NCBI GenBank assembly: GCA_001828855.1
Contig: MHZT01000034.1
Span: 62,001-126,000 of the forward strand
Source: Rhodobacterales bacterium RIFCSPHIGHO2_02_FULL_62_130
GTDB lineage: Bacteria > Pseudomonadota > Alphaproteobacteria > Rhodobacterales > Rhodobacteraceae
Reading direction: 5' to 3'
DNA: 64,000 nt
Under the pieces are notes generated by a model. It was not told the origin of the DNA. It did no database searches and saw nothing but the letters and a program-made list of their open reading frames with translations. Positions 13,932-32,748 of this stretch are shown here, piece by piece. Made by a program: the position numbers and the translations under genes. The stretch's first letter is position 1. Every line of letters starts with the position of its first letter.

Positions 13932-14005
13932 TGGAGGCGGGTATCGGAATCGAACCGATCTACATGGATTTGCAATCCAGCGCATAGCCTGCCTGCCCAC
14001 CCGCC
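13932..14005 (-). tRNA. tRNA-Cys (GCA), prophage attachment gene
   Basis: 74-nt tRNA with encoded CCA on the minus strand. Acceptor arms GGCGGGT/ACCCGCC pair fully. The anticodon stem-loop CTGGA-TTGCAAA-TCCA(T) carries GCA, and the T-arm is ATCGG-TTCGATT-CCGAT. Nucleotides 1-37 (5' end to just past the anticodon) are duplicated at the far prophage end, so this gene is a chromosome-phage hybrid whose 5' flank is prophage DNA. Confidence 0.96.
13969..14005. other. attL core (37 bp)
   Basis: Left copy of the 37-bp attachment core, beginning TTTGCAATCCAGCGCATAGC. It coincides with nucleotides 1-37 of tRNA-Cys, including the anticodon. It matches the right copy base for base; flanking bases differ on both sides (a versus c, t versus c), which fixes the core limits. 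Confidence 0.93.
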
Positions 14006-14017
14006 TCGTTGCTGTTT

Positions 14018-14046
14018 CCATTAAGTTTTGTCCTTCCCCGCGTCAA
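14018..14046 (-). promoter_or_regulatory. Possible phage-supplied promoter for tRNA-Cys
   Basis: Reading toward the tRNA on the minus strand, TTGACG (14046-14041) is followed after 15-17 nt by CTTAAT/TAATGG, ending about 12 bp before the tRNA 5' end. All of it is prophage DNA between the integrase stop and attL. The -35 element is good; the -10 is weak. Integration would separate the tRNA from its chromosomal promoter, so a replacement is expected here. Confidence 0.45.
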
Positions 14047-14064
14047 GCCATATCAGTCGGTTTA

Positions 14065-15084
14065 TCAAATCTCATTTTGTGCCGTATCTGTTCCATCCCA
14101 CTTGACGCGGGCTGATCGGGCTTGTGTCACCTGCCGGGCAATGCCCGCATATTGCCGGATCATCGCCTTTGAGGCATGGCCGCTATACGCTGCGATTTCG
14201 TCATCGCTGCACCCGGCCCACGCCAGCTCCATTACGCCGCGATAACGCAGCCCATGCAGGTCATAGGCATCTAGGCCAAGCCGCTTGCGCTCTGCCCGCA
14301 TAATCGCGGCCATGGCCTCATAGGTCATAGGCTGGCCATAAGTGTTCCGCAGGATTGACCGGCTAAGGTCGCACGGATCAGGGCGCACAGCGTCCAGCGC
14401 CGCGCGCAACGCTTCCGTGCAGGGCAAGGTTAGCGCCTTGCCGGTCTTGCCTTGAACAACCCGCAAGCTGTCCCCGTCATAGTCGCCCCACTTGAAGCGC
14501 GGCCAATCGCCCGGCCTCTGGACGCTGCCCACGCCTATTTCAAAGATCAGGCGGGGCAGGGGCTTTGCCAGCTCTCGCCACGTCGCCACCGCCGCATCTG
14601 TCCAAGGCACATGCGCCCGCCGCTTGTCCGCAGGCGTCTTGATCCGGCGCGCGCCCTTGGCCGGGTTGGTATCCAGCCACCCCAAATCTATCGCATGCTC
14701 ACACAGAACCGACATGACTTGCGGGATATAGTTGGCAAATCGCACCCGGTCTCGGTTGGCTTCCATCGCCGCCAGCACGTCCGCGCGCTTGAGCTTCGGC
14801 ACTTCCCTCCCGGCGTTCTTTTCTAGGACGTAATCAATCACCCGCTGATAATCCCGGCGTGACACCGGCCCGAGGTTGGCCCACCGATCCGAGGCTTGAT
14901 AACTCAGCACTAGCGCGGCCCACGTCCTACGGCTGGCCGGTGCCTTTCCGCCCATGATCGCCCAATATTCGATGTCAAAGGCTTGGGTGCCATATTCGGC
15001 CTTAATGCGGATCGTGCGGCCATGGCGCCGGAAATACCATGCGCCCGCGTAAGGCGACCAAAGGTAACGCTTTGGCTTCACCAT
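14065..15084 (-). CDS. Prophage tyrosine-type integrase
   Basis: 339-residue tyrosine recombinase catalysing att-site recombination. Catalytic residues can all be placed: R190 (GSVQRPGDW), K213 (VQGKTGKAL), H277-x-x-R280 (DLHGLRYRG), H303 (YSGHAS) and nucleophile Y312 (IRQYAGIA). The N-terminal arm-type and core-binding regions occupy about residues 1-150. It ends 59 bp from attL and its 5' end overlaps the excisionase-like gene by 7 nt. It is the last gene of a leftward six-gene chain beginning with an Arc-like regulator. Confidence 0.95.
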   Translation of the reverse strand: MVKPKRYLWSPYAGAWYFRRHGRTIRIKAEYGTQAFDIEYWAIMGGKAPASRRTWAALVLSYQASDRWANLGPVSRRDYQRVIDYVLEKNAGREVPKLKRADVLAAMEANRDRVRFANYIPQVMSVLCEHAIDLGWLDTNPAKGARRIKTPADKRRAHVPWTDAAVATWRELAKPLPRLIFEIGVGSVQRPGDWPRFKWGDYDGDSLRVVQGKTGKALTLPCTEALRAALDAVRPDPCDLSRSILRNTYGQPMTYEAMAAIMRAERKRLGLDAYDLHGLRYRGVMELAWAGCSDDEIAAYSGHASKAMIRQYAGIARQVTQARSARVKWDGTDTAQNEI

Positions 15085-15278
15085 TGCATAGCCCCCCCGC
15101 CCGCCACATCGCCCCGGATCACGCGCCGCAGCTCGTCCACGTCGAACCGCTCAAGCTGGCCGATCCGCTTGGGGGGCGGAAGGTTGCCCGCCGCCACCTG
15201 CTCGCGCAGCTCCGTCGCCTTCATATCCAGCAGCGCCGCCGCCCGCGCCTCCGTTGCAAAGATCGGGTCAAGCTTCAT
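15078..15278 (-). CDS. Excisionase-like / helix-turn-helix protein
   Basis: 66 residues with the pattern of small winged-helix excisionases of the AlpA/MerR kind: FATEARAAALLDMKATELRE (helix-turn-helix), then PPPKRIGQLERFDVDELRRVI (wing and C-terminal helix). Its place directly upstream of and overlapping the integrase gene supports a recombination directionality role. It could instead be a transcriptional regulator. No catalytic function is expected. Confidence 0.65.
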   Translation of the reverse strand: MKLDPIFATEARAAALLDMKATELREQVAAGNLPPPKRIGQLERFDVDELRRVIRGDVAGGGAMQW

Positions 15279-15582
15279 TTTCGGCCACTTTCAAGGCTTG
15301 CCAGTAGGTATCCACCACCCGCCCGAACATGGCTTGCGCGTCCCGGTCCACATCGGTTTCGCCGCGCATCTTGAGAACACGCTTTAGCGCCGCCTTGTCG
15401 TAACCTTCGGATTTGGCGCGGTCGAAGTCGGCTTTGATAAGGTCGCCCAGCTCCGCCTTGCGCTCAAACTTGCCCTCTAGACCTTCGACAATTTCCAGCA
15501 GCCGCGCGCCCGCATTTTCCAGCACCGCCGCCGTCACGGCCATGTCGGCTTCGGTTTCCTTCATGGGGGTTTTCTTGCTCAT
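15268..15582 (-). CDS. GapR-like (DUF2312) DNA-binding protein
   Basis: 104 residues, mostly helical. Its central part (LLEIVEGLEGKFERKAELGD, then ADFDRAKSEGYDKAALKRVL, KMRGETD) follows the GapR/DUF2312 pattern: long first helix, then I/V-K-x-x-F/Y-A-x-A-K-x-x-G-Y/F-D, then a basic L-(K/R)-x-(V/I)-L-x-(M/L)-R. Caulobacter GapR clamps overtwisted AT-rich DNA. A phage copy could act on supercoiling during replication or on integrative recombination. The match is by eye and the N-terminal 20 residues are divergent. It overlaps both neighbours in the integrase operon. Confidence 0.6.
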   Translation of the reverse strand: MSKKTPMKETEADMAVTAAVLENAGARLLEIVEGLEGKFERKAELGDLIKADFDRAKSEGYDKAALKRVLKMRGETDVDRDAQAMFGRVVDTYWQALKVAENEA

Positions 15583-15830
15583 GCTGTCACCCCTTGCTTG
15601 ACGTATGGCTCACAAAGCACGGCCCGCACCCGATCCGCTTCCCGCGACCGCTGCAGGGCGTTCCACTTGGCGGTCGATCCATCTTCGCTTTCATCCGACA
15701 CGCCTTCACCGCAGCCGCATTGGACATAATGGGTTTCGCGGCCAGCGCCGTATCCGAACCAGCCTTGATCTGGCTTGCCCGTGCCGCAGGCGCAGGCCCA
15801 CAGGTGGCCATGGGTGATGCCCGCGCTCAT
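15579..15830 (-). CDS. Lar-like zinc-ribbon protein 1
   Basis: 83 residues with ACACGTGKPDQGW, then YVQCGCGEGVSDESEDG and AKWNAL. The spacing of C-x-C and C-x-C pairs and the closing A-x-x-W-N are those of Lar-like (restriction alleviation) zinc ribbons found on phages and prophages. Rac prophage Lar modulates the host EcoKI restriction-modification system. Here function is inferred from motif alone. It overlaps both neighbours by 4 nt, inside the integrase operon, beside a second Lar-like gene. Confidence 0.55.
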   Translation of the reverse strand: MSAGITHGHLWACACGTGKPDQGWFGYGAGRETHYVQCGCGEGVSDESEDGSTAKWNALQRSREADRVRAVLCEPYVKQGVTA

Positions 15831-16030
15831 GCCGCGCCCCTTTCATCGTTCCAGCGCATCACTGCGCCCGCATCGGTCGCCGCCCAAGACCCGATAGCCC
15901 CGCAGCCTGAATTACCGCAGGCAATTCGCCATGCTGCCGGATACCCGGCGCGAACCTGATTGCAGATCAGTTGGGCGCTATCATGCCCGCAGCCGCGACA
16001 AGCGCGCGCCACCACCTTTACAAAGGTCAT
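15827..16030 (-). CDS. Lar-like zinc-ribbon protein 2
   Basis: 67 residues: CRGCGHDSAQLICNQ, then WRIACGNSGCGAIGSW and AVMRWNDE. It shows the same two cysteine knuckles and terminal A-x-x-x-W-N as its neighbour but only weak identity to it, so the pair probably reflects an old duplication or independent acquisition. Possible role is protection from host restriction; a generic small zinc-ribbon regulator is the alternative. Overlaps of 4 nt on both sides show tight coupling. Confidence 0.55.
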   Translation of the reverse strand: MTFVKVVARACRGCGHDSAQLICNQVRAGYPAAWRIACGNSGCGAIGSWAATDAGAVMRWNDERGAA

Positions 16031-16197
16031 GCCGCCGCCCCCCGATCTTCGCCGCGCTCGGGCTGATCGCGGGTCAAGTCCCGTTCCAAGCGCGACAGAA
16101 TTTCTGCGTTCATGCTGCGCCGATTTACCCGCGCCGCTTCCAATACTTTCGCGCGCAGGCTTTCAGGCCAACGCAGTTGGGTGACAAAGGTATTCAT
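16027..16197 (-). CDS. Arc-like ribbon-helix-helix regulator (leftward)
   Basis: 56-residue protein, starting MNTFVTQLRWPESLRAKVLE and continuing ARVNRRSMNAEILSRLER. This is the Arc/Mnt fold: a short N-terminal strand (TFVTQLRWP), a helix, N-R-R-S turn, and MNAEI of the second helix. It is the first gene of the leftward operon that ends with integrase and shares its control region with a rightward Arc-like gene. Its stop overlaps the next start (ATGA). The strand residues that read DNA (TQLRW) differ from those of the rightward protein (NVRLP), so the two may prefer different sites. Confidence 0.8.
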   Translation of the reverse strand: MNTFVTQLRWPESLRAKVLEAARVNRRSMNAEILSRLERDLTRDQPERGEDRGAAA

Positions 16198-16208
16198 AGG
16201 CCTATCCC

Positions 16209-16261
16209 TTTATATAGTTGCATGGTGCCACTAGATGCACGATGCAACTATTGACTGTCAA
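16209..16261. promoter_or_regulatory. Divergent control region with palindromic operator
   Basis: Between the two Arc-like genes lies an inverted repeat with 13-bp arms and one mismatch: AGTTGCATGGTGC (16216-16228) and GCACGATGCAACT (16237-16249), centre cactagat. TATATA abuts the left arm, reading as a leftward -10. TTGACT follows the right arm as a rightward -35 and itself begins the 11-bp palindrome TTGACTGTCAA (16251-16261). The layout fits a genetic switch in which a ribbon-helix-helix dimer pair covers both promoters. Confidence 0.65.
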
Positions 16262-16299
16262 CCCGCAACCGATCTTTTTCGCGCAAAAGGGGAATTGGA

Positions 16300-16626
16300 A
16301 TGTCAGACCTAAGACCGGGACAAGGTGCCGAAAGCTTCAACGTCCGACTGCCCGCAGGGATGCGCGACAGGATCAAGGTTGCCGCCGATCTAAACGCCCG
16401 CAGCATGAATGCCGAAATCGTCGCCACTTTAGAGGAACGCTATCCGGCCACGTCTGTTGACGTGCGCGCTGTCGATAGCCTGTTGCATTACATCGCCAAC
16501 GCGACCACCCCCGGACAAGTCCTTGAACGGATTGCCGAGGTAAACGCAAAATTTGAGGCGGTTGGATCACCCTTGCGGATTGAACAGGGGCGGGAAGGCA
16601 AGCTAACGATAGTCACCGAATTCTAA
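16300..16626 (+). CDS. Arc-like ribbon-helix-helix regulator (rightward)
   Basis: 108 residues. The first 50 form an Arc-type ribbon-helix-helix domain (ESFNVRLPAGMRDRIKVAAD, then LNARSMNAEIVATLEERYP). A C-terminal extension of about 55 residues (VDSLLHYIANATTPGQVLER...) may mediate oligomerisation. AAGGGG precedes the ATG. It is one of only two rightward genes in the prophage, which is how a lysogenic repressor would be placed; no CI-like repressor was found. P22 Arc/Mnt are the nearest functional precedent. Confidence 0.82.
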   Translation: MSDLRPGQGAESFNVRLPAGMRDRIKVAADLNARSMNAEIVATLEERYPATSVDVRAVDSLLHYIANATTPGQVLERIAEVNAKFEAVGSPLRIEQGREGKLTIVTEF

Positions 16627-16643
16627 CCCGCAAAGGTTTTGCC

Positions 16644-16823
16644 ATGTCTATTTTGAATATCATTGTCGGCCTCGTCGCCATCGCATTCGCTGTTTATTCC
16701 TTATTGATTTTCAAGGTGGCTGCGGGCGGTATCCATGAAGTCTATGGGGCGGTCATGCTAGGGTCTGGCGGCATCATCTTTGCAATCGCCGCACTGATCC
16801 TTGCGATAGAGCGCCGCCCCTAG
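16644..16823 (+). CDS. Small two-TM membrane protein
   Basis: 59 residues, beginning MSILNIIVGLVAIAFAVYSL, with two hydrophobic helices (about 3-24 and 36-55) joined by a short turn (KVAAGGIHEVYG) and a basic end (ERRP). It follows the rightward Arc-like gene by 17 bp and so is likely expressed in the lysogen. A superinfection-exclusion or lysogenic-conversion role is plausible. No homology is claimed. The stop overlaps the convergent leftward gene by 4 nt. Confidence 0.6.
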   Translation: MSILNIIVGLVAIAFAVYSLLIFKVAAGGIHEVYGAVMLGSGGIIFAIAALILAIERRP

Positions 16824-17149
16824 CTAAACATCGCGTCAAAGATTTCCGGTGTCAGCTCTTGCAGGGGCGCACCGGCCCCGCCCTTTGCCTGACATTCCAG
16901 CCAACACCCATCTAGGGCGCGGATCACATCAATATGCCGCAGCTCAAGGGGCAGGCCCATCGCCTCGCCTTGCTCCCTGATTTCCGCAAGGGTCAGGGGT
17001 TGCGGCCCGTGGGCATGCCAGCCGCGCCCCGGCGATATGGCAGCGAACACCTGCCACAGCGCGACCCCGGCCAAGGGCATGGCGGGCGGCTTGCCCGTGG
17101 TCATATGCCGCCTCATGGCTTCCACCATCAACCTTTTCAGCCCGTTCAT
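16820..17149 (-). CDS. Phage protein of unknown function
   Basis: 109 residues, not recognised. Sequence is amphipathic and helical with a tryptophan-rich middle (WQVFAAISPGRGWHAHGPQP) and ends EIFDAMFS. It is the last gene of the leftward late operon, overlapping Rz1 by 4 nt, and converges on the small membrane-protein gene. Late-operon position suggests a lysis-associated or virion-associated role, but nothing more can be read. Confidence 0.6.
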   Translation of the reverse strand: MNGLKRLMVEAMRRHMTTGKPPAMPLAGVALWQVFAAISPGRGWHAHGPQPLTLAEIREQGEAMGLPLELRHIDVIRALDGCWLECQAKGGAGAPLQELTPEIFDAMFS

Positions 17150-17358
17150 TCCAGCACCCCTGCCACTGCCTCAAGCTTCCCGTTTGCACATTGCCGCCCG
17201 GCCTTTTCCGCCGCCGCCGCGCGGATCAGCTCACCCTCTGTTGCGGGTGCCTTGCCGATCCAGCCGGGGCAGGGCGTCAGCAAATCGGGCGGCACCGTTG
17301 CCGGATCACGGCCACACCCGGCCAGCACTATCGCGCAGATAATCAGACAGCCCCGCAT
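17146..17358 (-). CDS. Rz1-like outer-membrane spanin lipoprotein
   Basis: 70 residues starting MRGCLIICAIVLAGCGRDP: a short signal with lipobox L-A-G-C, so the mature lipoprotein is about 57 residues. It is rich in Pro and small residues near its start (VPPDLLTPCPG). It overlaps the 3' end of the Rz-like gene by 53 nt in another frame, the classical Rz/Rz1 arrangement. Rz1 with Rz fuses inner and outer membranes in the last step of lysis. The frame is open upstream, but only this ATG gives the lipoprotein signal. Confidence 0.75.
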   Translation of the reverse strand: MRGCLIICAIVLAGCGRDPATVPPDLLTPCPGWIGKAPATEGELIRAAAAEKAGRQCANGKLEAVAGVLE

Positions 17359-17569
17359 TTGCCCCCACCCCTTCCGCCAAAACCCGATCCAGTTGCGCCG
17401 CCGCCCGATCCGCCGCTTGCTGTCGCACCCGGAAGCGGTCGGCTTCCCGATACCCCTCAAGCGCCGCCGCCTGCGCGCGCAGCTCGCCCCGGACAGCAGA
17501 CAGCCGCCACGATTGCCAGCCAAGGCCAAGCCCTAGACAGACCAGCACCACCAGCCCGGCGCGGATCAT
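17306..17569 (-). CDS. Rz-like inner-membrane spanin
   Basis: 87 residues: an N-terminal TM anchor (MIRAGLVVLVCLGLGLGWQS) followed by a periplasmic coiled coil (LRAQAAALEGYREADRFRVR...). This is the topology of i-spanins. The ATG overlaps the lysozyme stop (ATGA), and the 3' end overlaps the lipoprotein gene out of frame. It belongs to the lysis cassette holin-lysozyme-Rz-Rz1. Confidence 0.75.
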   Translation of the reverse strand: MIRAGLVVLVCLGLGLGWQSWRLSAVRGELRAQAAALEGYREADRFRVRQQAADRAAAQLDRVLAEGVGANAGLSDYLRDSAGRVWP

Positions 17570-18027
17570 GTCACACCCGACAGGCACAGCGCCCGCTCCG
17601 ATGCGCGGCGATTGGTTAAGCCCCGGATCACCCGCCCGTTGTCCTTGTTCCACCGGGGCAGTTGATCGCAGGCCGCGCGCAGCTCGCCCCGGTTCAGCAG
17701 CTTGAACAAGGTCGAGGCGCAAGCCGCCCGCACCCCCACGTTGTAGGTGAAGGACAGCGTGGCCAGATAGACAGGATCGGGCAGGGCGTCGGGCTGTCGC
17801 AGACATGCCACCATGCCCGCCTCATGCTGCACCATGTCTCGCGTAAACATCACGTCACAATCCGCCGCCGTGGCGGTGTCACCGATCCGCACTCCAAGCG
17901 TCGATCCCCGACAGATCGTCGGCACCCCGCCCCCGTCCAGATAGGCCGCCAGCGACAGCCCTTCCCACCCGCCGACAAATGCCAGGGCGATTGCTGCCAC
18001 CGCGCCGCCTTTCGCCACCCGGTTCAT
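17566..18027 (-). CDS. GH24 phage lysozyme with SAR-like N-terminus
   Basis: 153-residue muramidase. Catalytic triad spacing matches T4 lysozyme exactly: E22, D31 (9 later) and T37 (6 later) in GWEGLSLAAYLDGGGVPT. A weakly hydrophobic, Ala/Gly-rich N-terminal helix (GGAVAAIALAFVGG) precedes it, as in signal-arrest-release endolysins that are exported by Sec and released when the membrane is depolarised. Cysteines near the active site (C39, and CDVMF) could take part in activation. Overlaps holin and Rz genes by 4 nt each. Confidence 0.9.
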   Translation of the reverse strand: MNRVAKGGAVAAIALAFVGGWEGLSLAAYLDGGGVPTICRGSTLGVRIGDTATAADCDVMFTRDMVQHEAGMVACLRQPDALPDPVYLATLSFTYNVGVRAACASTLFKLLNRGELRAACDQLPRWNKDNGRVIRGLTNRRASERALCLSGVT

Positions 18028-18209
18028 TTGGCCCACCGCTTGCGGGCATAGCCTGCAATCTGGATTGCCAGCCACAGCGCCGACAGGATCGGCACAAGAT
18101 GCGCCGCCGTGTTGGACGCCTCTGCAAGCGTCGGCATCCATGCAGGCATCGTCACCCCGCCAACCGCCACGCCATTCGTTGCCCGCATCGTAAACCCCTC
18201 GCTTGTCAT
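18024..18209 (-). CDS. Holin-like single-TM protein
   Basis: 61 residues with one central-to-C-terminal hydrophobic helix (AHLVPILSALWLAIQIAGYA) and a basic tail RKRWAK. Size, topology and position immediately before lysozyme fit a phage holin or pinholin that would trigger the SAR endolysin. The ATG has GAGG upstream, and the stop overlaps the lysozyme start. No family is claimed. Confidence 0.65.
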   Translation of the reverse strand: MTSEGFTMRATNGVAVGGVTMPAWMPTLAEASNTAAHLVPILSALWLAIQIAGYARKRWAK

Positions 18210-18219
18210 TTTTTTTGCC

Positions 18220-18405
18220 TCAATCCGGTTGCGGAAGAACGTAGGGCGCTGGCCCCAACTCAAACGCCGCTTCATAAATCGCCCGCCCGTGGGCTTCCGT
18301 GTCGGAATGGTCCGCCGTGAACTGCATCCAGCCCCACACGGGAAAATTGACCTCGCAGTCAATCCGCCCGTCTATCGTCCAAATCGCGTTTCTGATTTGC
18401 ATCAT
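18220..18405 (-). CDS. Small tail-region protein
   Basis: 61 residues with the pattern IDCEVNFPVWGWMQFTADHS then EAHGRAIYEAA, seen in short proteins encoded between tail-fibre and lysis genes of many tailed phages. Function unproven; possibly a tail-fibre accessory or assembly factor. The second of two adjacent ATGs is chosen because it makes an ATGA overlap with the upstream gene. Confidence 0.6.
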   Translation of the reverse strand: MMQIRNAIWTIDGRIDCEVNFPVWGWMQFTADHSDTEAHGRAIYEAAFELGPAPYVLPQPD

Positions 18406-18836
18406 GCAATCCTCACCCACATCGTTGCCAAGTTTGCCGATTGGCTCGGGCTATTGTTCTGCATATGCCCAAGACACTCCCACGTTCCGCTTGGTGATAC
18501 CGTCGAAAGCACCGTCCCACTCATGCCTGCATATTTCAGGGCGCTTCCGGCCTTGGTGGTGCCAGCCGTGGCAAAGGTGGTCGAAATGGCTACGCTTGCG
18601 CCAAGGAACGCATAGGAACCAACGGCACCGACAGCCATGGCTGCAACCCGCGCACCAACCCAAGAAATGCCTTCAGCCGCCACAGTGGTATCCAGCGCAG
18701 CATCCACAAGGCGCGGCGCACCCGATACCCCGGCAAAACCGGCCTCCCAGTTTTCAAACCACCGCCGGAAATGGTCCGCTGTTCCCGGCGCATCCGGCGC
18801 GTATTCGCTCACAGTGTAAGGGGTGTAAGTTGGCAT
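18402..18836 (-). CDS. Putative tail-tip or host-recognition protein
   Basis: 144 residues. N-terminal segment TVSEYAPDAPGTADHFRRWF, then a glycine/alanine-rich middle and a C-terminal beta-rich part ending MWVRIA. It follows the large tail-hub-like protein by 3 bp, so a structural tail-tip role is likely. No fibre repeats or chaperone domain are visible. If this phage has a receptor-binding protein, this or the preceding gene is the candidate. Confidence 0.5.
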   Translation of the reverse strand: MPTYTPYTVSEYAPDAPGTADHFRRWFENWEAGFAGVSGAPRLVDAALDTTVAAEGISWVGARVAAMAVGAVGSYAFLGASVAISTTFATAGTTKAGSALKYAGMSGTVLSTVSPSGTWECLGHMQNNSPSQSANLATMWVRIA

Positions 18837-18839
18837 GAT

Positions 18840-20612
18840 TCAAATCGCCCTATAAGGTTCGTCGCCGTTCGACATTTTCAGCGTTGTGCTGTCGCAGGCA
18901 TAAAAGCCGCGCGCCCGTTGCGCCGCGCTTGACGCGGCATAGGTCGGGCGGGTGTTTTCGGTCGCGTATCCGTAGCGCCCCGTAAAAGCATAGGCTTGCG
19001 CTATCAGCTCAATCTCATGCCCCGGCACCGGCTCAGACCGCCCGACGATCTGGACAGGCACCGCCACGCCGCGCCCAACTTCATCCTGCAACGCCGCCGA
19101 AGTAATCATTGCCACATCGGCCAAGCCGATTGCGGTATCCTTGGCGTCCAGCCTGATACGGTATCGCACCGGCGCAAGCCGGAACCGATTGAGCAACCGC
19201 TTTGACAGGACAACGATTTCCCCATCCGCCCCGTCATTGAACCAGCGGCAAAAGATTTTCCGCGCCCGCGTGTCGCCATAGGCCCGCGCCGACTTGGCTT
19301 CAAAGTCATAGGTGCCGATCCCGCGCGCATAATTGCTGGCATCGGTCGCGCTTTTCGTCGGGTCGAGCTGCACCGAAAAGAACACAACTTCTGTTAGCCG
19401 GGTGCTGTTCTGATCCTCTGACGAAATTGCCTTGATATTGTTGCGGTCTGAAAGGTCGTAAACCGTGTCGCCATCGGGCGGGCGGTTGACCTTGAGAACA
19501 AGCTTTGAGCCGGTCACATCTGGGAAAAGTGAAAAGCCTAAAACTGTCAGCTCGCCTATCAGCTTTGCCACGCCGGTCGGCTGGCAAATATTGGTCCGCA
19601 GCAGAATTTGCGGCATCCAGCGGCTAACCTCTGGCGACCACTCTGCCGCCTTCGGGATCGCACTGGACGGAACATTGCCGAACCCGCAAAGGATTTCCAC
19701 CGCATCATCTATCCGCACACCGTCAAACCACAGCACTTGTTGAAACGTATCTCCCGCCGCGTGGCTGGCCGCGACTGTCTTTGCCACCCCGCGCCCGGTC
19801 AGCGTCACCACGTCACCCGCGCGGGTATAGCTGACAATCTCAGAACCACCGATGCAGGCCCGCCCCGCAGCCGGATATTCCGCCGCCCCGATTCCGGCAG
19901 GCGATAGCGTCAAGGCGGCATCGGTTGAGGTGATCGCCGCCACCAGGACGCCCGAGCTAGGCTTGGGCGCAAGGGCGCGGTCGTTGCCGATCAGGTCAAG
20001 AAGGTCGCTTGCCTCAAGCTTGACGCGCCCGGCATCATCCGGCCCGGCCCAATCGGTCAGCACATAGTTGCGCGTCACGACACCCGACAGCGCCCCGCCA
20101 TCTACAAAGCCTTGCAGCACCCGCAGCGGTCGCCCGGTGTAATAGGGCCAGCGCGCCCGCAGCTTGCCGAAGAAGGTTCCGCGCGTGGCCGGATCATAGC
20201 CCGCCTCGTCGATTTGCGCCGCCCCGCTGATCCGCTCCGCTTGGTAAGGATCGGTCAGCCGGTCGTGATAAGGGAAGTCCAGCAGCTCCACCGCCACCGT
20301 TGCCCGCCGCCCCAAGCTGCCCGAGCTGGCATCCGTCCCGGCAATGTTCACCGTCGCGGCATATTCCGAAACGCTGGACAGCGCCGGGAATATGGTTTCG
20401 CCCTTGGGCAGATTGGCGCGCGGATCGGCAAAGCGAAGGGTTTTCATCACCGGCGAAAAGGCCGCTTTCGCCTTGCAGGTGGCGAAGGTGTTAAAGCACT
20501 TCCGCACCACCGAACCGCCAAGCGCCGCTGTGCAAGCGCCAACCCCGAAGGCCAGCGCGCAGCCTTCATAATCCATCTCTACGATTGTAATCGGTTCACG
20601 CGGCATAGCCAT
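18840..20612 (-). CDS. Tail hub / baseplate-like protein
   Basis: 590 residues, the second largest prophage protein. The N-terminal KCFNTFATCKAKAAF (C-x-N-T-x-A-T-C) motif is one I recognise from hub-type minor tail proteins of siphoviruses. The remainder is beta-rich with repeated short loops and a C-terminal AQRARGFYACDST. It overlaps the preceding tail gene by 17 nt. A place at the distal tail end, with gene order tape measure - tail - hub, is expected for such a protein. No peptidase motif was seen. Confidence 0.6.
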   Translation of the reverse strand: MAMPREPITIVEMDYEGCALAFGVGACTAALGGSVVRKCFNTFATCKAKAAFSPVMKTLRFADPRANLPKGETIFPALSSVSEYAATVNIAGTDASSGSLGRRATVAVELLDFPYHDRLTDPYQAERISGAAQIDEAGYDPATRGTFFGKLRARWPYYTGRPLRVLQGFVDGGALSGVVTRNYVLTDWAGPDDAGRVKLEASDLLDLIGNDRALAPKPSSGVLVAAITSTDAALTLSPAGIGAAEYPAAGRACIGGSEIVSYTRAGDVVTLTGRGVAKTVAASHAAGDTFQQVLWFDGVRIDDAVEILCGFGNVPSSAIPKAAEWSPEVSRWMPQILLRTNICQPTGVAKLIGELTVLGFSLFPDVTGSKLVLKVNRPPDGDTVYDLSDRNNIKAISSEDQNSTRLTEVVFFSVQLDPTKSATDASNYARGIGTYDFEAKSARAYGDTRARKIFCRWFNDGADGEIVVLSKRLLNRFRLAPVRYRIRLDAKDTAIGLADVAMITSAALQDEVGRGVAVPVQIVGRSEPVPGHEIELIAQAYAFTGRYGYATENTRPTYAASSAAQRARGFYACDSTTLKMSNGDEPYRAI

Positions 20613-25138: not shown

Positions 25139-25148
25139 TGCTCAAGCC

Positions 25149-26292: not shown

Positions 26293-26693
26293 TTGGCCCC
26301 CCGGATCGCCTTGGAAATCCCGCGCTTGATTTGTGCCGCCGCCTTCTTTCTGGACAGCCGAAAGCCCGGCCAGAAAAAGGGCTGCGCCGCCGCGTGGGTC
26401 GTTCCGTATTCGACCAAATGGGGATAGCGCACGTCGGTATTTCCGACAGTCACCGCCGCCGCATTGTCCGGCACCACAGCCGCGCCGCCCGGCTGGCTAT
26501 AGGCCGGGGTTGCTTGGCCCGGCCCGGTGACGGTCACACTTGCCAGTAGTGCGCCTTCGTCCACCGGGGCAAGCGCGCGGATCGCGTCAGCCACCGCCTC
26601 CCCGCCCCGCAAAAGGGCAGGATCAACCGCGCGCCGCACCGCTTCCGGTATTGCCTGCATCCGTCTTTGAAAGCTCGCCAGACCCTCGCCCAT
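26289..26693 (-). CDS. HK97 gp10-like neck/tail-completion protein
   Basis: 134 residues. ALAPVDEGALLASVTVTG and RYPHLVEYGTTHAAAQPFFWPGF (shown in part) are the signature of the HK97-gp10 family: the A-P-V-x-x-G-x-L segment and the V-E-Y-G-T-x-x-x-A-x-P-F block. These proteins act at the head-tail junction. It lies 1 nt after the gp6-like gene and overlaps the tail terminator gene. Confidence 0.87.
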   Translation of the reverse strand: MGEGLASFQRRMQAIPEAVRRAVDPALLRGGEAVADAIRALAPVDEGALLASVTVTGPGQATPAYSQPGGAAVVPDNAAAVTVGNTDVRYPHLVEYGTTHAAAQPFFWPGFRLSRKKAAAQIKRGISKAIRGAK

Positions 26694-26694
26694 G

Positions 26695-27006
26695 TCAAAA
26701 GGTCCAGTCCCGAAACTCGCGCAGGATTTCTGTCACCCCGAAGGGCGGTTCCCGCAGCACTTCCGCTGTCGCCTCGCGGTTCTCATACCAGTGCGCCGCC
26801 AACATCAGCACCGCCTGCCGCAGCTCGTCCGGCACCGGGTCTTGACCCACCCCGCCGAAGGTCGCGGCAAAGGTGAAACCTAGCTTGCGCTCAACAAAGC
26901 TCTCAGCCCCCGCAAGAATACGGGTCAACATGGCGTCGTCTGTCGTTCCAAGATCATCCGTAAAGGAAAGATGCGCCCGCAGATCGGCTAAGGTATTGAT
27001 CGCCAT
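26695..27006 (-). CDS. gp6-like head-tail connector protein
   Basis: 103 residues: TLADLRAHLSFTDDLGTTDD, then MLTRILAGAESFVERKLG and ELRQAVLMLAAHWYENREAT. The D-x-x-L-x-x-L-(x)n-A-x-x-(F/Y)-(V/I)-E core and A-x-x-W-Y-E-N-R-E are those of the HK97 gp6-type connector ring. A 107-bp gap with a long C-run separates it from the tail-tube gene upstream. Confidence 0.85.
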   Translation of the reverse strand: MAINTLADLRAHLSFTDDLGTTDDAMLTRILAGAESFVERKLGFTFAATFGGVGQDPVPDELRQAVLMLAAHWYENREATAEVLREPPFGVTEILREFRDWTF

Positions 27007-27113
27007 GGCCTAAAAACTCCAATTCGCGCAAATATCGCGCAAGACACCCCGCGCCGGTCCCCGCCTATGGGCCAAAGTTGAGGACCACCCCCCCCCCTCT
27101 GGCCCTAGCTGGA

Positions 27114-27605
27114 TCAGGTCGGGCTTGCGTGGGTCAGGACGATGTTACTGTTCGGCTGGATCGTGAACTTGACAGTGCCAATCTCGCCCGATGCATCATC
27201 CTCAACCCCGATCACCGAACCCACGAAAAGGCGGGTAGAGTTTTTCGGGGTCGCACCTGTCACCGGCTTATCGGCAAAGGTGAAGCGCATGGCGTAGTTG
27301 CTGATCAGCGCCTCAAAGGCCGCGCGCATAGCGAGCTGCCCTGCATCGGTCGGGTCGAGGCCGCACGTCAGCTCAAAGCTCTTTCCTTTCCGCATGATCT
27401 TGAACACGCGGCTGCGCCCATCGGTGACGTTGCCAAACTCAGCGGTAGACCATTCATCGACAGGAACGCCGAGGGTCTTAGGCTCTTTCACTTCGGTTGC
27501 AGCGGTCAAAGGTGTGGTGAAGTCAGCGGCGATAAAGTCCGCAGACTTCAAAGCCACGACAGCGCCCAGCTCAAACTTGCTGCCGGTGATAACGTAAACA
27601 GGCAT
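27114..27605 (-). CDS. Major tail tube protein
   Basis: 163 residues, beta-rich, beginning MPVYVITGSKFELGAVVALK and containing VDEWSTAEFGNVTDG and MRKGKSFELTCGLDPTDAGQ. Size and composition match siphovirus tail tube proteins of the lambda gpV/phi13 class. It is placed before, not after, the neck genes, an atypical position. The gene for an HNH endonuclease lies 3 bp upstream. Confidence 0.75.
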   Translation of the reverse strand: MPVYVITGSKFELGAVVALKSADFIAADFTTPLTAATEVKEPKTLGVPVDEWSTAEFGNVTDGRSRVFKIMRKGKSFELTCGLDPTDAGQLAMRAAFEALISNYAMRFTFADKPVTGATPKNSTRLFVGSVIGVEDDASGEIGTVKFTIQPNSNIVLTHASPT

Positions 27606-27608
27606 GGA

Positions 27609-27956
27609 TTAACCTTTCGCTTTGCGTTCTTCGCGCTGTTTCGCGCTGTTGTGGTGATACTGGCAAAGGCTCTGCCAATTGGTCTTGTCCCAGAATTTCA
27701 CCATGTCGCCCCGGTGCGGCTCGATATGGTCCACATGATCGGCCTTGACGCCGCACCGCTTGCACCACGGATGCGCGCCAAGCCAATCCTTGCGGGCGGC
27801 TTCCCATTTGGACGTATAGCCACGGGCGCTTGAGCTTGGCCGCTTCTTATCGAACCGGGCTTTGCGGTCCCGATCCGCCGCCGCCGTGCAGGTGCAACGG
27901 GTGCCAATGGCCACCGTCTTACCGCACTTGCACAGGCGGGGCGCACGGGTTGGCAT
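27609..27956 (-). CDS. HNH endonuclease
   Basis: 115 residues. Zinc-binding cysteines lie in HPWCKRCG (C65, C68); the catalytic HNH core is HVDHIEPHRG (D76-H77), N93 in KTNWQSLC, and H101/H102 in CQYHHNSAKQ. The N-terminal KCGKTVAIGTRCTC adds a second cysteine cluster. HNH proteins of this class often work with terminase in cos-type packaging, in which case this would normally sit beside terS. Here it lies between the capsid and tail-tube genes. Confidence 0.9.
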   Translation of the reverse strand: MPTRAPRLCKCGKTVAIGTRCTCTAAADRDRKARFDKKRPSSSARGYTSKWEAARKDWLGAHPWCKRCGVKADHVDHIEPHRGDMVKFWDKTNWQSLCQYHHNSAKQREERKAKG

Positions 27957-28339
27957 CAGTAGACAGGCCGCAGCATCGGAACCGACAGGACCACGACACC
28001 GATGATTGCCGAAGTGCCACTTGCAAGGGTCAGGGTCGCCCGGATGAAGGGCAGGTTGCCCAAGTAGCCCAAGCGATAGTTGGAACCAGCCACCAGCACC
28101 GCAGGGGCGTCGGATTGCACCCGATCCGCAGGAACATCGGCATAGGTCACACCGTCCAAGGAATGCTGCAACTTGACCCCGAAAGCCGCCGCCCCGGTGA
28201 TCGCGCCCACCGAAACCAACATGGCCACAGACCGCACGTCAACAAGGTTCACCGCCGCCGCGTTGGTGGTTGCCGCCACCGCGACAGGCGCAAGGGCAAC
28301 CGCAAGCTTAACGCTAGAATAAAGGTCGCGCATGATCAC
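27956..28339 (-). CDS. Putative capsid decoration or head-stabilising protein
   Basis: About 127 residues, Ala/Val-rich: LVDVRSVAMLVSVGAITGAA, then VKLQHSLDGVTYADVPADRV and GYLGNLPFIRATLTLASGTS. Proteins of this pattern occur right after the major capsid gene in many siphoviruses, and a beta-sandwich decoration role is plausible. A GTG start overlaps the capsid stop (GTGA); an ATG two codons later is the alternative. Confidence 0.55.
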   Translation of the reverse strand: MIMRDLYSSVKLAVALAPVAVAATTNAAAVNLVDVRSVAMLVSVGAITGAAAFGVKLQHSLDGVTYADVPADRVQSDAPAVLVAGSNYRLGYLGNLPFIRATLTLASGTSAIIGVVVLSVPMLRPVY

Positions 28340-29886
28340 ACCGCCATCTTGAGTTTTTTGAACTTCGCAGCCATCAGCACTTTGCCACCCACGCGCCGCC
28401 CGGCGTGAATGCGGGTGATTTTCCGCGTGGCTTGGGAATAGGGGTCCACCAGCATCGACAGCGACAGCCGATCAAGGATGCGATAGCCCGAAAAATCCGC
28501 GTAGCAGATCGGGAAGGCGTTTGCCGCCACATCGGGCATGTCGATCACTTCGATAACCGGGCGGCCCAACAGGGTGGACGGCTGGCCATCGCGCACGGAA
28601 GGCGTCCACAGATAGTTGTTGGTCGTGTCCTTCAGGGTCGAAATCAGGCCCAAGGTCGTCCCGTTCATCACCCACACCCCGGCATTGCGATAGGTCGGCG
28701 TCACGGAAAACAGGAACTTGATAAGGGCGTCAGGTTGCAGAACGGTCGCGTGGCCGTTCTTGTATTCCGCCACCGTGGTGTTGGTCATAAACCCTTCGGG
28801 CTGCGTGGTGCCGTTGCCATTGACAAAAGCCACGGTCTCTTTTTTCTCGAAATCTTCCGACAGGGCTTCCCGCACTTCCGCTTCCACGGAAGGCGCGTCT
28901 TGCATCAGCATGTTGGAAATATCGACAAAAGTGGACATGCCACGGGTGCCAACTTCAAGCTGGCCAAGGAAGCTTGTGGACGTGGTTTCCGTCTCTTGGT
29001 CAAGCTCGTCGTCCCACGTCGCGTTGCCCATTGGCTTGCGGGTCGGATAGATCACGGAAGGCCCATTCGTGCCGCGCACCGAGGCAATCGAACGGATTGG
29101 CGACATTTCCACAATATCTTTCACAATCTCGCCCGACATTTCAGCCGGTGCCAGATAGCCGCCGTTCGGATCGCTGGCCAAGGTCAGGGCCTTCAATTCG
29201 ACTTCCCCAGCCATCGGCCCGCGCGTCAGGTAGGCTTGAAAAGCCTTGCGCTCCACCGACAGCTCTTGCTTGTCGTCCCCGGTGTGGCGGTTGCCCTTGG
29301 CTTCCAGCTTGTCCAGCCGCTGCACATAAGGCGCAACCGCCGCAGCCACCGCCGCGTCAAGCGCCCCGGCGTGTTTGGCCTCAATTTTGGCCAATTCCGC
29401 CTGCATTTCCTCAATCGTCATATCGTCACCCTTTCCGGCCCCGTGGGCCTTAACCGCAGCAATCCTTGCGCCGGGGTGCATCGGCACCGCGACAATCGAC
29501 ACTTCCACCAGCTCCACCCGCAGCAGATCGCGGCCCCCGCCAACCCGTGCCGCCTTTTTGGTGGCCAAGTATCCAATCGAAAGCCCGCCCATGGCACCCG
29601 ACTGCACCAGCGCCCGCACTTCCGCAGCGCGCGCCACGTCATTAACCAAAAGCCGCCCCTTCACTTGCAGGCCGGTTGCTGTTTCGGTCAGCTCATCCCA
29701 CACCCCCACCACGTCCGCAGGGTCGTGGCTGGCCAGCATCGGAATAGGCGGGCGCGCCCCGGCGAAAGCGCCCTTGTGCAAAACGTCGCCGCCCCGGTCA
29801 GCCGTGCCGAATACCGCTGCAAGGCCGGTAATCACTCCCGCCTCATCAACCGCAAAGCTTGCCTTGAACTCGATCCGGTCGGCCAT
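28336..29886 (-). CDS. Fused prohead protease and HK97-type major capsid protein
   Basis: 516-residue polyprotein. Residues 1-150 are an S78-family prohead protease, with H54 (MLASHDPADVVG) and S103 (AMGGLSIGY) and the acidic partner expected in RVELVEVSIVAVP. Residues about 155-230 form a charged helical delta/scaffold region (MQAELAKIEAKHAG). Residues about 235-516 form the HK97-fold capsid (GGYLAPAEMSGEIVKDIVEM; GRPVIEVIDMPDVA; YRILDRLSLSML). The usual two genes are thus one. Self-cleavage between domains is expected during maturation. The start was set by ATGA overlap with the gene upstream. Confidence 0.92.
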   Translation of the reverse strand: MADRIEFKASFAVDEAGVITGLAAVFGTADRGGDVLHKGAFAGARPPIPMLASHDPADVVGVWDELTETATGLQVKGRLLVNDVARAAEVRALVQSGAMGGLSIGYLATKKAARVGGGRDLLRVELVEVSIVAVPMHPGARIAAVKAHGAGKGDDMTIEEMQAELAKIEAKHAGALDAAVAAAVAPYVQRLDKLEAKGNRHTGDDKQELSVERKAFQAYLTRGPMAGEVELKALTLASDPNGGYLAPAEMSGEIVKDIVEMSPIRSIASVRGTNGPSVIYPTRKPMGNATWDDELDQETETTSTSFLGQLEVGTRGMSTFVDISNMLMQDAPSVEAEVREALSEDFEKKETVAFVNGNGTTQPEGFMTNTTVAEYKNGHATVLQPDALIKFLFSVTPTYRNAGVWVMNGTTLGLISTLKDTTNNYLWTPSVRDGQPSTLLGRPVIEVIDMPDVAANAFPICYADFSGYRILDRLSLSMLVDPYSQATRKITRIHAGRRVGGKVLMAAKFKKLKMAV

Positions 29887-30278
29887 CACACCGCCCCCAC
29901 CACAAAGCGCCGCCGATCCGCCGCAAAGGCGTCGATCTGCGATTGCACCCACACCCCGGCGCGCAACAGCCGCAGCACATTCTCAAAGCTGAACGGCACC
30001 GGCTTGCCATCGGCTTGCACTTCCCAAGCCACCACGCACCGCGCCAAATTCCGCAGCCGCGCAAGCTCGCGGTTTTCCGCGCTCACCCGGCCTTCGAAAT
30101 CCGTGGCGGCTGTCAGATCATCCACCAGCGCCAACCGCGCCCGCGCTTGGGTCGCGCTATCCGGCCCGGCCACCTTGACGCGCAACCCGGTCGGCTGACC
30201 CTTCACCGGGTCCAGCAGCTCAAGCCACGCGCCCCGGTCCTGATCTTCGGCAAAGCCTTCAATCTCATTCAGTTGCAT
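29886..30278 (-). CDS. Phage protein resembling tail assembly chaperones
   Basis: 130 residues. The order LDPVKGQPTGLRVKVAGPDS, then RLRNLARCVVAWEVQADGKP and FSFENVLRLLRAGVWVQSQI, ending in DAFAADRRRF, matches small proteins encoded next to tail-tube genes that are thought to chaperone the tape measure. Here it sits between portal and capsid, so the assignment is tentative. It starts 14 nt inside the portal gene's end. Confidence 0.55.
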   Translation of the reverse strand: MQLNEIEGFAEDQDRGAWLELLDPVKGQPTGLRVKVAGPDSATQARARLALVDDLTAATDFEGRVSAENRELARLRNLARCVVAWEVQADGKPVPFSFENVLRLLRAGVWVQSQIDAFAADRRRFVVGAV

Positions 30279-31479
30279 CGCTGGCCCCTTTCGGACCGAC
30301 AGGCGCGGCTGTCGGCTCTGTCGATATGTTTGGATTTTTGAACACGTTGCCGCCCGCCCGTGGGCCAAGCCCGATCCAAGACCGGGCTTCATTGGCGTTG
30401 ATCGTTTCGGAAGAAATCAAGCTGTTGATCGTGGTCGCGCGGGTTTGCAGATCGGCGCGGGTCATGTCGTCCCGATCAAAGCGGATCACCAGCCGCCCGC
30501 CTTCATCCCCCAACAGGGCGCGGGTCAAAGCCCCTTCAAGGGCGCGCAGCCACGGCTCTAGGCAATAAGTCAAGAATTCCTTGCCAAGCTGTTCGGTGTT
30601 GCCCCACGTCGCCCGGTCCAGATCGAAAAGCATGGAAGGCGGCACTCGGAAGGCGCGGGCAATCTCAAGGATTTGGAATTTACGGTTCTCAAGGAATTGC
30701 GCGTCTGTCGAATTGAACGTGATCGGCACAAAGGTGGTGCCATCATACAGGATTGCTGTCTTGCCGCTTTCCCCGTCCGCCTCATGCGTGGCCCGCCAAG
30801 CCGCAATGGCCTTTTTAACAGAGGCTTCACCGAAACCAGAAGGAAACGACAAAGCGCCGGAAGGCCGCGCACCCTTACCAAACAGGTTGGCCGCGTGACG
30901 TTGCAGCACATAGGCCACCCCGATTGCCTCGCGCGCCATGGTCAAGGGTGAACGGCCAAAGGGCGCGCGCAGGTGGATCATATCGGCGGAAGGCACCGGG
31001 CGGTTATTGATCCGATAGGACGGCTCGCCCGTGTTCTGATTAACATCAACTGTCACCACACCAGACCGATAGCGGATCAGCTCTGCCGCGCGACCCTCAA
31101 CCCGGTTGACCCAAACCAGCCCGCCCCGATCATCTGACAGCGCGTCAATCACAAGGTCGCGGATCAGCTCAAAGCCCGAAGTCCAGTCATTCGCCCGGCC
31201 CTTGAGCAAGGCAAGCAGCGGATGGCCCGCCACGTTGGTTTCGGTGCCATCCGCTGCCACGGCCTTGACCATCACGTCGAGACAGGCCGCAGCCTCAGAA
31301 ATCACGCGGATCGCAGACCCAACCGCCGCCACGTCCAGCGCCATCGGTGCAGAAATCTGCACCCCGGCTTGCGTTGGCATCAGGCCGAAAAGGGCCAGCA
31401 GGTCCGTTGTCGGATCGGCAAGCCCCTTGGTCTCAGGCTTGAAAAGGCGGGATATGATGCGCGGTGTTTTCATCCTCAA
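30265..31479 (-). CDS. HK97-family portal protein
   Basis: 404 residues with the portal signature series: VAAVGSAIRVISEAAACLDV, HPLLALLKGRANDWTSGFEL, MIHLRAPFGRSPLTMAREAI, and FRVPPSMLFDLDRATWGNTE with EQLGKEFLTYCLEPWLRALE. The dodecameric portal forms the DNA channel and docks terminase. It is the first structural gene of the leftward late operon, well separated from terS-terL. An internal ATG two codons in is an equally good start. Confidence 0.92.
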   Translation of the reverse strand: MRMKTPRIISRLFKPETKGLADPTTDLLALFGLMPTQAGVQISAPMALDVAAVGSAIRVISEAAACLDVMVKAVAADGTETNVAGHPLLALLKGRANDWTSGFELIRDLVIDALSDDRGGLVWVNRVEGRAAELIRYRSGVVTVDVNQNTGEPSYRINNRPVPSADMIHLRAPFGRSPLTMAREAIGVAYVLQRHAANLFGKGARPSGALSFPSGFGEASVKKAIAAWRATHEADGESGKTAILYDGTTFVPITFNSTDAQFLENRKFQILEIARAFRVPPSMLFDLDRATWGNTEQLGKEFLTYCLEPWLRALEGALTRALLGDEGGRLVIRFDRDDMTRADLQTRATTINSLISSETINANEARSWIGLGPRAGGNVFKNPNISTEPTAAPVGPKGASDATE

Positions 31480-31520
31480 GTTTCTGCGCCGCCACTAGGG
31501 ATTGTGGCAATCCGATCAAA

Positions 31521-31558
31521 TCCGCCAATATCCGCCAATATCCGCCAATATCCGCCAA
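31521..31558. repeat. 10-bp tandem repeat, about four units
   Basis: TCCGCCAATA repeats three times exactly and a fourth time for eight bases, in the 93-bp gap between the helix-turn-helix gene and the portal gene. The 10-bp period equals one helical turn, so bound proteins would line up on one DNA face. It sits where a promoter for the late operon would be. Confidence 0.7.
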
Positions 31559-31572
31559 GCCCCGCCACTAGG

Positions 31573-31764
31573 TCAGCCCTGTTGACGTTTCCACCGCTGC
31601 AAATCATCCGCGTGGGCGTTCCAGCGCCCCCCGATCTTGGACACCGGCAATTCAGTTTCATCTGTCACAAGCCACCGCTCTAGGGTCCGAACACCCACAC
31701 CCAAAGCCCCTGCAATCGACTTCACGCCCCAAAGCCACCCGTCGTTCTGACGTTGATTAGCCAT
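31573..31764 (-). CDS. Small helix-turn-helix DNA-binding protein
   Basis: 63 residues: LWGVKSIAGALGVGVRTLER (helix-turn-helix), WLVTDETELPVSKIGGRWNA (wing), HADDLQRWKRQQG. It resembles AlpA-type or terminase-small-like HTH proteins that use W-x-x-x-I-A-x-x-L-x-V-S-x-x-T-(L/V). Position 20 bp after the initiator gene and directly before the 10-bp tandem repeats makes it a candidate late-gene activator binding those repeats. Confidence 0.7.
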   Translation of the reverse strand: MANQRQNDGWLWGVKSIAGALGVGVRTLERWLVTDETELPVSKIGGRWNAHADDLQRWKRQQG

Positions 31765-31784
31765 AACTGCCCCCTCAAAAAATC

Positions 31785-32537
31785 CTAAGCTTTAGCTCTC
31801 AGCCACTCTGCAAATCGAAGTGCGATGCGGGTGGCGGTTTCATCCCCTGCCGAGGGCGGATAGCGCCAAGGCATATCCCACCCGGTCAGCATCCCCGCCC
31901 CGGCCTTGTGGCCGATCTGGGCCAGCGCCGGGAAACCATGCGCTGCAAGCCATCCGTTCCAATCTTGCTCTTGATCCGTGCCGATCTGGACAAGCTGCGA
32001 AAGGGGGGTTGGCCTAGCACCCCCCGCCACTACGATTTTCGTAGCGGACCGAGGCCACCGCGTATGGTTCAAATTTGGTTTATCCTTATAGGGGGGTGTG
32101 GGGGGGATTTCTTCCGTGTCACCTGTTCGGGACAAGGGTGTCACCTGTTCAGGTGACTGCGCTGTCACCTGTCTAGGTGTCATGCGTGTCACCTGTTCAG
32201 GTGGCGCGGCTGTCACCTGTTGAGGGGTGCGGAAACGATAGGTTGCCTCGCGGCCCGGCGCATTGCCGCCCGCGCGCTCGATCCATCCGGCCTCTTGCAG
32301 ATCGGCAAGCGCCCGCAGCACAGTCCGCTTATGCGCCGCGACAGCCTTGGACAGCGCCGCCAATCCGGGGCGGCACTCAGCGGTTTCATGGTTGGCGTAG
32401 CCTTGGGCCAGCACGGTTGCGACAAGCCGCGCCATGGGCAAAAGCCGCCCATCCGCCGCAACCGCCTTGATCCATGTCCACCGCTCTTTTGACCATCCGC
32501 CCGGCGTCTGGCCTCGCAGTTGGACAACTTTAGCCAC
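31785..32537 (-). CDS. Replication initiator-like protein with internal origin
   Basis: 250 residues. The N-terminal half is a winged-helix DNA-binding domain (RPGLAALSKAVAAHKRTVLR, then ALADLQEAGWIERAGG), like the HTH_36-type domains of phage initiators. Residues about 103-140 are an octad repeat (QVT-x5) encoded by palindromic DNA iterons. The rest is a proline-rich linker (IPPTPPYKDKPNLN) and a C-terminal domain rich in Trp (QDWNGWLAAHGFPALAQIG, WDMPWRYPP). This is the organisation of lambda O, in which the initiator binds iterons inside its own gene and recruits helicase. It is the first leftward gene from attR. Confidence 0.72.
   Translation of the reverse strand: MAKVVQLRGQTPGGWSKERWTWIKAVAADGRLLPMARLVATVLAQGYANHETAECRPGLAALSKAVAAHKRTVLRALADLQEAGWIERAGGNAPGREATYRFRTPQQVTAAPPEQVTRMTPRQVTAQSPEQVTPLSRTGDTEEIPPTPPYKDKPNLNHTRWPRSATKIVVAGGARPTPLSQLVQIGTDQEQDWNGWLAAHGFPALAQIGHKAGAGMLTGWDMPWRYPPSAGDETATRIALRFAEWLRAKA
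32069..32229. other. Candidate prophage replication origin: five iterons and an AT-rich stretch
   Basis: Five copies of TGTCACCTG start at 32117, 32139, 32163, 32187 and 32211 (spacing 22, 24, 24, 24). The best copy, GTCACCTGTTCAGGTGAC (32140-32157), has perfect 8-bp arms around TT. Two others are nearly as symmetric; the outermost copies are half-sites. Next to them, downstream in the sense of the gene, 32071-32090 is 16/20 A+T in an otherwise GC-rich region. The order iterons then AT-rich unwinding region inside the initiator gene matches lambda ori. Confidence 0.72.
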
Positions 32538-32631
32538 GGCTCAAACCCTTATCAGGTTCACCATATGGCCTTGATTTGTTTCGGTAAGTTTTTGGGGTGT
32601 AACGCGTTGCAAACGCTAGGCTTTCGCCCGG

Positions 32632-32668
32632 CTTTGCAATCCAGCGCATAGCCTGCCTGCCCACCCGC
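32632..32668. other. attR core (37 bp)
   Basis: Right copy of the 37-bp core, identical to nucleotides 1-37 of tRNA-Cys. It contains only the 5' half of the tRNA gene; the 3' half is absent here. Chromosomal sequence resumes immediately after. A palindrome GCGTTGCAAACGC (32603-32615) lies just inside the prophage. Confidence 0.93.
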
Positions 32669-32682
32669 CCCGAAGGTGAGGT

Positions 32683-32712
32683 TGAGATAGGGGAAAGCGG
32701 CGCGGGCTGCAA
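32683..32712 (-). promoter_or_regulatory. Probable original tRNA-Cys promoter, displaced
   Basis: Reading leftward from the chromosome toward attR, TTGCAG (reverse of ctgcaa) and TATCTC (reverse of gagata) stand about 17 bp apart and end about 15 bp before the duplicated tRNA 5' end. Before integration this would have driven tRNA-Cys. In the lysogen it would transcribe the half tRNA and run on toward the phage initiator gene. Confidence 0.5.
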
Positions 32713-32748
32713 GGGGGATTTGTAAAGCTTTCCCAAGACCCTGAAAGC

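Follow-up and report, generated by a model that had tools for sequence, protein, structure and literature searches.

Elements that integrate in tRNA genes usually rebuild the 3' side of the gene and leave its promoter untouched. Integration that deprives a tRNA of its own promoter is known from archaea (pTN3-like elements) and is called seldom in bacteria (PMC8371274). According to the relevant passages of two papers, the pTN3-like integrases of Thermococcales have the 5' half of a tRNA as their attachment site (attB) and part the tRNA from its original promoter (PMC8371274; PMC5495485). The same arrangement is found in Rhodobacterales bacterium RIFCSPHIGHO2_02_FULL_62_130, in a window of 64,000 nucleotides (nt) (contig MHZT01000034.1, 62,001-126,000, of GCA_001828855.1; coordinates below count from the window start), where a tailed-phage prophage very probably rebuilds the sole tRNA-Cys gene under a phage-borne promoter and displaces the host promoter past its right attachment site (attR).

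The two settings differ in the integrase gene. In pTN3-like elements it is disrupted, and its promoter is said to drive the tRNA (PMC8371274), whereas in the window the integrase frame (14065-15084) is whole and located outside the attachment core, with a separate promoter-like site between it and the tRNA; the window shares the 5'-half attB and the parted promoter, but not the disruption. Ordinary prophages of the anticodon loop (the class of Williams 2002, via PMC8371274) likewise have a tyrosine integrase and a core in the anticodon stem-loop, and the tRNA is rebuilt. They rebuild the 3' half with the promoter left intact, as do those members of the integrase clade described below in which the tRNA 3' end faces the integrase (minus), while members in which the tRNA 5' end faces it (plus) do the opposite. 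The classical 3'-half arrangement is absent from the window, where the repeat equals tRNA nt 1-37 and the native promoter lies beyond attR.

Other described systems share single aspects. Islands and prophages that target dusA replace the 5' end of their target, with putative promoters before and after in the relevant part of the report (PMC4482086), but this target is protein-coding, unlike the tRNA here. In the tRNA-dependent lysogeny of actinobacteriophages, as far as the relevant sections of the source describe it, the lysogen needs the phage for a non-redundant tRNA, as is proposed here, but the tRNA gene that these phages bring is complete and has a promoter of its own, and the present element carries the 5' half and a promoter only (PMC10865867). 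The integration site of the Paracoccus prophage vB_PspS_PD42 is listed as tRNA-Cys(GCA), as here; the relevant passages have no word on the rebuilt half, and "promoter" is absent from the main text (PMC6536676).

Integration at the tRNA-Cys gene of the window

The left (attL) and right cores (Table 1) are identical at 37 of 37 bp, and the identity block stops right after the anticodon loop (nt 37). ARAGORN called tRNA-Cys at the left copy alone, and the 5' half and upstream flank of this intact gene form the phage side of the attL junction. A preliminary description of this DNA, made from the sequence alone, had claimed that the repeat equals tRNA nt 1-37 with only the left copy joined to the 3' half, and that phage DNA adjoins the intact gene at its 5' end, with the chromosomal 5' flank now lying beyond attR. 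The exact repeat match and the ARAGORN call agree with the former, and the repeat layout together with the genus comparison agrees with the latter. An integrase beside the attachment site, a direct repeat made of part of a tRNA and empty sites in relatives are all found here, as in tRNA prophages with tyrosine recombinases.

The source genome comprises 4.97 Mb in 53 contigs (completeness 100). A whole-genome search gave one full tRNA-Cys match and one half, the attR copy, and the anticodon arm occurs in one exact copy genome-wide. The second tRNA-Cys gene, on whose absence the earlier proposal of a lysogen dependent on a phage promoter had been made conditional, was not found in the rest of the genome. 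In a search of the genus, 13 of 15 genomes matched, and none was listed with two complete tRNA-Cys genes.

To a large extent, the assignment of the two promoter-like sites rests on these relatives. All nine empty sites of the genus carry TTGC-N17-TA at -15 to -19. TTGACG-N17-TAATG at -18 is found at attL of the window and of two related lysogens (G006 and G012), and TTGC-N17-TA at -19 or -20 is found at attR of the same three and on a contig with only the half tRNA (G007). Therefore, the empty site continues into the flank type that now lies past attR, as had been predicted (13968, then the core, then the flank from 32669). An empty site whose 5' flank resembles 14006 onward, which had been named as the refuting case, is absent in the genus, where nine of nine have the chromosomal TTGC type. 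In another genus, Paracoccus, some sites that lack an integrase do bear the phage-type promoter, and the clearest of them are read as relics (see below).

Both promoter-like sites named in the preliminary description are present: the TTGCAG/TATCTC pair in the chromosomal flank is of the same type as in the nine empty-site relatives, and a site of the same kind as the TTGACG-led phage site facing the tRNA stands in attL of the two lysogens and in 27 of 28 plus loci. The TTGCAG word with N17 spacing also stands upstream of both tRNA-Gly genes just past attR. Between these genes and the displaced tRNA-Cys promoter we noted by eye a GC-rich hairpin (32753-32773, minus strand), which was not in the scan; it suggests that tRNA-Cys may formerly have been its own transcription unit.

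We propose that the tyrosine integrase would recombine in the anticodon loop of tRNA-Cys, and that integration would rebuild the gene from phage promoter, phage 5' half and host 3' half and leave the host promoter before the 5'-half stump at attR. The position and conservation of the phage site suggest that the tRNA is transcribed from it. With no second tRNA-Cys gene found in the genome, the lysogen would depend on the phage promoter to survive.

Orientation and promoter in the integrase clade

We collected integrase relatives from 76 genome loci and 24 viral loci and placed them by ARAGORN and a half-tRNA pattern. It turned out that the 100 loci include 21 plus-Cys, 7 plus-Trp, 37 minus-Cys and 16 minus half sites, while 19 were left unplaced, a number of them because the contig stops at the integrase. 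Plus elements, at tRNA-Cys or tRNA-Trp, replace the 5' half of the gene and minus elements the 3' half, so the minus group is the textbook arrangement. TTG-N20-TA stands at exactly -18 (Cys) or -17 (Trp) in 27 of the 28 plus loci (letter shuffles of the plus flanks: mean 0.36, maximum 3 of 28). On the phage side of the minus loci it was found in none of 37, either in the same window of positions or between -30 and -15; on their host side it occurs in 14 of 37 in the same window and in 31 of 37 in the wider one (shuffle mean 0.19, maximum 3). Whether the phage flank holds the promoter can be told almost perfectly from the orientation (27 of 28 vs 0 of 37). In 11 of the 28 plus loci the integrase stop TGA forms part of the -35 TTGA, and most of the distinct plus segments have, directly upstream of the promoter, CTGATAACC/GTGATAACC-like repeats, which look like arm-type integrase sites.

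The other end of the plus elements was read from whole-genome tRNA-Cys searches of 14 genomes that hold plus-Cys loci and of 3 viral records. Each of the 14 genomes has exactly one near-complete tRNA-Cys match, and in 11 of them a further, partial match covers nothing but the 5' half (on the contig of the tRNA in 7, on another contig in 4). Read around the core, the 5'-half copies lack the tRNA 3' half; the flank before them is of host type in most and of phage type in G410, G411, G417 and G416, and G416 (the genome of L096) has a 3' half as well. For tRNA-Trp, one near-full match is accompanied by a match to the 5' half in 3 of 5 genomes. Where the half and the intact tRNA lie on one contig, five of the seven plus elements span about 9-11 kb (e.g. 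G413:C11:608790-619619) and the remaining two measure 41 and 53 kb. Those of 9-11 kb may be satellites. Besides, in one Paracoccus genome (G411) tRNA-Cys and tRNA-Trp each hold a plus element (L083, L112).

Several points weigh against the reading of a dedicated phage promoter. A generic sigma-70 promoter scan reported the site of neither end, because its rule requires T at position 6 of the -10 element, which both sites lack, and the support for promoters is therefore taken from comparison. One plus locus with a divergent integrase (L093) has no TTG-N20-TA site, the 28 plus loci are relatives of one another, some of them near-duplicates, and give 26 distinct promoter segments, and the shuffles preserve letter content alone. 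A clear 5'-half copy was not found in 3 of the 14 plus-Cys genomes, namely those of L089 (single match), L055 (two weak extras) and L120 (weak match to nt 23-62). The crossover point is placed from where the identity block ends, at nt 37. Finally, transcription of the codirectional integrase gene, which ends 59 nt before tRNA-Cys (locus L122 is the same integrase), could also reach the tRNA. If such read-through transcribed the tRNA, as in the archaeal pTN3-like elements (PMC8371274), the TTGACG site would be incidental. We consider this very improbable, since TTG-N20-TA keeps a fixed distance from the tRNA in 27 of the 28 plus loci and is missing on the phage side of the minus loci, and the promoter is kept where the integrase has shrunk to its last codons.

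The orientation appears to have changed within the clade. Parsimony on the plus/minus label gave 3 changes with all rows and 2 changes, in both a quick and a careful tree, without six long-branch or odd rows (L109, L108, L093, L054, L133 and L135), so at least two switches are needed; the trees exclude integrases whose matched frame has two or more stops (L097, L102, L104, L105) and matches below 850 nt. In approximately unbiased (AU) tests on the quick tree, all minus rows as one clade (p 0.013) and all plus rows as one clade (p 0.035) were both rejected, which is moderate evidence that neither group forms a single clade. The palindrome TTGCAA in the anticodon loop of tRNA-Cys may ease the switch. 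At two loci (L109 and L116) a minus element lies 3' of tRNA-Cys and a plus-type promoter 5' of the same gene, so that both halves of the tRNA may be phage-supplied; the short 5' flank of L109 holds a plus-type integrase match (72% identity, residues 235-337), and that of L116 (267 nt) gave no integrase match. Among isolated phages, 36 records matched but none has a close integrase, the nearest, at 34%, being that of Paracoccus phage Pkon1, whose integration site is reported as an OmpR-family regulator gene in the relevant part of PMC6536676. The best plasmid match is a Pseudorhodobacter replicon (51%).

Phage-type promoters in Paracoccus

The phage-type promoter was found in 27 of 125 Paracoccus genomes (reversed control 0), and 29 of 30 promoter loci were read; L204 (G539) was dropped, as it has no anchor. 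Among the 29, 8 have an intact tRNA-Cys with a long integrase match upstream, 2 (G459 and G541) match only 17-27 residues near the end of the integrase, 15 have no integrase match within 1.5 kb upstream of the intact tRNA-Cys, and 4 are attR halves with the phage-type promoter in the flank. G411 (as L083) is the ninth Paracoccus promoter genome with an integrase.

For six genomes (G459, G541, G483, G476, G503 and G435) we read 13-14 kb around tRNA-Cys, and no second core was found in the stretch of any of them. Four keep the integrase gene end, arm repeats and promoter before tRNA-Cys (G459, G541, G483 with a weak match of E 0.002, and G476 by eye), and G503 and G435 keep arm repeats and promoter. 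Genome-wide, G476, G503 and G483 have one tRNA-Cys match, G459 has an extra 3' half, and G435 has an extra 5' half on another contig, given which it is not a clean relic. The promoter beside integrase remnants in the four genomes suggests that the swap can become permanent; in some relatives the virus appears to be gone and its promoter-like sequence left.

The opposite history would have the phage capturing a host promoter, with the Paracoccus genomes that lack an integrase being ancestral and not relics. Many of these genomes have shared neighbours distinct from those of genomes with the TTGC promoter, and the promoter type may follow host lineage. Against it speak the integrase ends and arm repeats that G459, G541, G476 (by eye) and G483 retain, no second core being found in the 13-14 kb read, and we regard this history as doubtful, although for the genomes that show no phage trace either direction of transfer may apply. 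We instead find it rather likely that the half rebuilt, 3' or 5', changed at least twice within one clade, and that the attP promoters of its 5'-half members became permanent for an essential single-copy tRNA in several Paracoccus species after phage loss. This wider picture of switching, a conserved promoter and relics exceeds the claims of the preliminary description.

In a family-wide pattern search with nearly one genome per genus, the Paracoccus promoter was found in 0 of 394, and relics are therefore claimed for Paracoccus only. At two further loci (L073 and L107) the host side of tRNA-Cys has TTGACG-N17-TAAG preceded by a TGATA-type word, and 2.5 kb there gave no integrase match; these are possible promoter relics outside Paracoccus.

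Partial tRNA-Cys matches, a minority of them checked for an element, are confined to the 5' part in 12 and to the 3' part in 13 of 121 Paracoccus genomes, so 5'-half copies are about as common there as 3'-half copies. Both kinds are listed for G416, G435 and G455, and the partial matches of G455 and G481 may be contig breaks.

The gene next to attR, other features and implications

The displaced host promoter faces the replication-initiator-like gene of the prophage. All four members of the window's own group (the window, L015, L016 and L017) have a long frame in this direction whose start is some 95-115 nt from the core, though that of L015 runs off its contig. From this gene order, which fits in the window's group only, it is plausible that the host promoter would read into the initiator gene in the lysogen. 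The same layout could mean that the phage promoter serves phage genes, reading through attP into the initiator in the excised circle, with tRNA expression as a side effect. Yet among the 9 other attR flanks that are long enough to judge, no forward frame that begins within 450 nt exceeds 138 aa (an unassigned frame), vs 250 aa in the window, while the plus promoters stay in place, and sites that lack an integrase also have the promoter, so this purpose is unlikely to explain it. That the stretch from attR to the initiator forms a terminator or a structured leader was also considered and rejected: the folding z of three leaders was 0.23, -1.01 and -2.06, with no consistent structure.

The identified prophage genes comprise a replication initiator, endolysin, portal, capsid with protease, terminase, tape measure, tail fibre and integrase. 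Ten plus-strand frames of 164-597 aa in the prophage had no PHROG match. The candidate left arm repeats recur in relatives as CTGATAACC..GTGATAACC, and GTTATCAGGACA-like words are present on the right-hand side in several relatives. Besides, one prophage protein (15268-15582, minus strand) matches the GapR DNA-binding domain (PF10073, E 1.4e-8); the GapR family are chromosome-associated proteins.

Table 1. Features at and between the two attachment sites, in window coordinates
Feature	Position	Strand	Basis and remarks
tRNA-Cys(GCA)	13932..14005	-	ARAGORN and whole-genome searches; sole intact copy found in genome
attL core, tRNA nt 1-37, anticodon loop at its end	13969..14005	-	identical to 32633-32669
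Prophage body, ~18.6 kb	14006..32632	-	all identified genes on - strand
Phage-borne promoter-like site, TTGACG-N17-TAATGG	14018..14046	-	TA at -18 from tRNA start; comparison with relatives
Candidate arm-type integrase sites, (T/C)TGATA(A/T) repeats	14050..14069	-	read in sequence, between integrase end and promoter
Tyrosine integrase, codirectional with tRNA	14065..15084	-	PF00589, E 1.8e-11; phrog_1
66-aa helix-turn-helix protein, candidate excisionase	15078..15278	-	HTH_17 below cutoff, E 0.0015; role proposed from position
Replication-initiator-like gene	31785..32537	-	phrog_270 (E 1e-9) and phrog_391; starts 95 nt inside attR, tRNA transcription direction
Candidate right-hand arm site, CTGATAAG	32546..32559	-	read in sequence
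attR core, tRNA-Cys nt 1-37 on the host side, 3' half missing	32633..32669	-	repeat comparison
Putative displaced chromosomal tRNA-Cys promoter, TTGCAG-N17-TATCTC	32684..32712	-	TA 20 nt before half tRNA

In the literature searched on tRNA promoter exchange by prophages, dusA and Paracoccus tRNA-Cys, a search that took in little of the subscription literature, no account of this clade was found. As far as these partly accessible sources go, three things look new: a dedicated promoter that goes with one orientation, the orientation switches inside a single clade, and the relics.

In conclusion, a clade with both orientations amounts to a natural experiment on the preference for the 3' side. Two ideas now become testable, namely that a phage holds its host via the promoter of an essential tRNA and that phage promoters are kept after the phage decays. 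If true, the phage attachment site would be a vehicle for rewriting tRNA expression.

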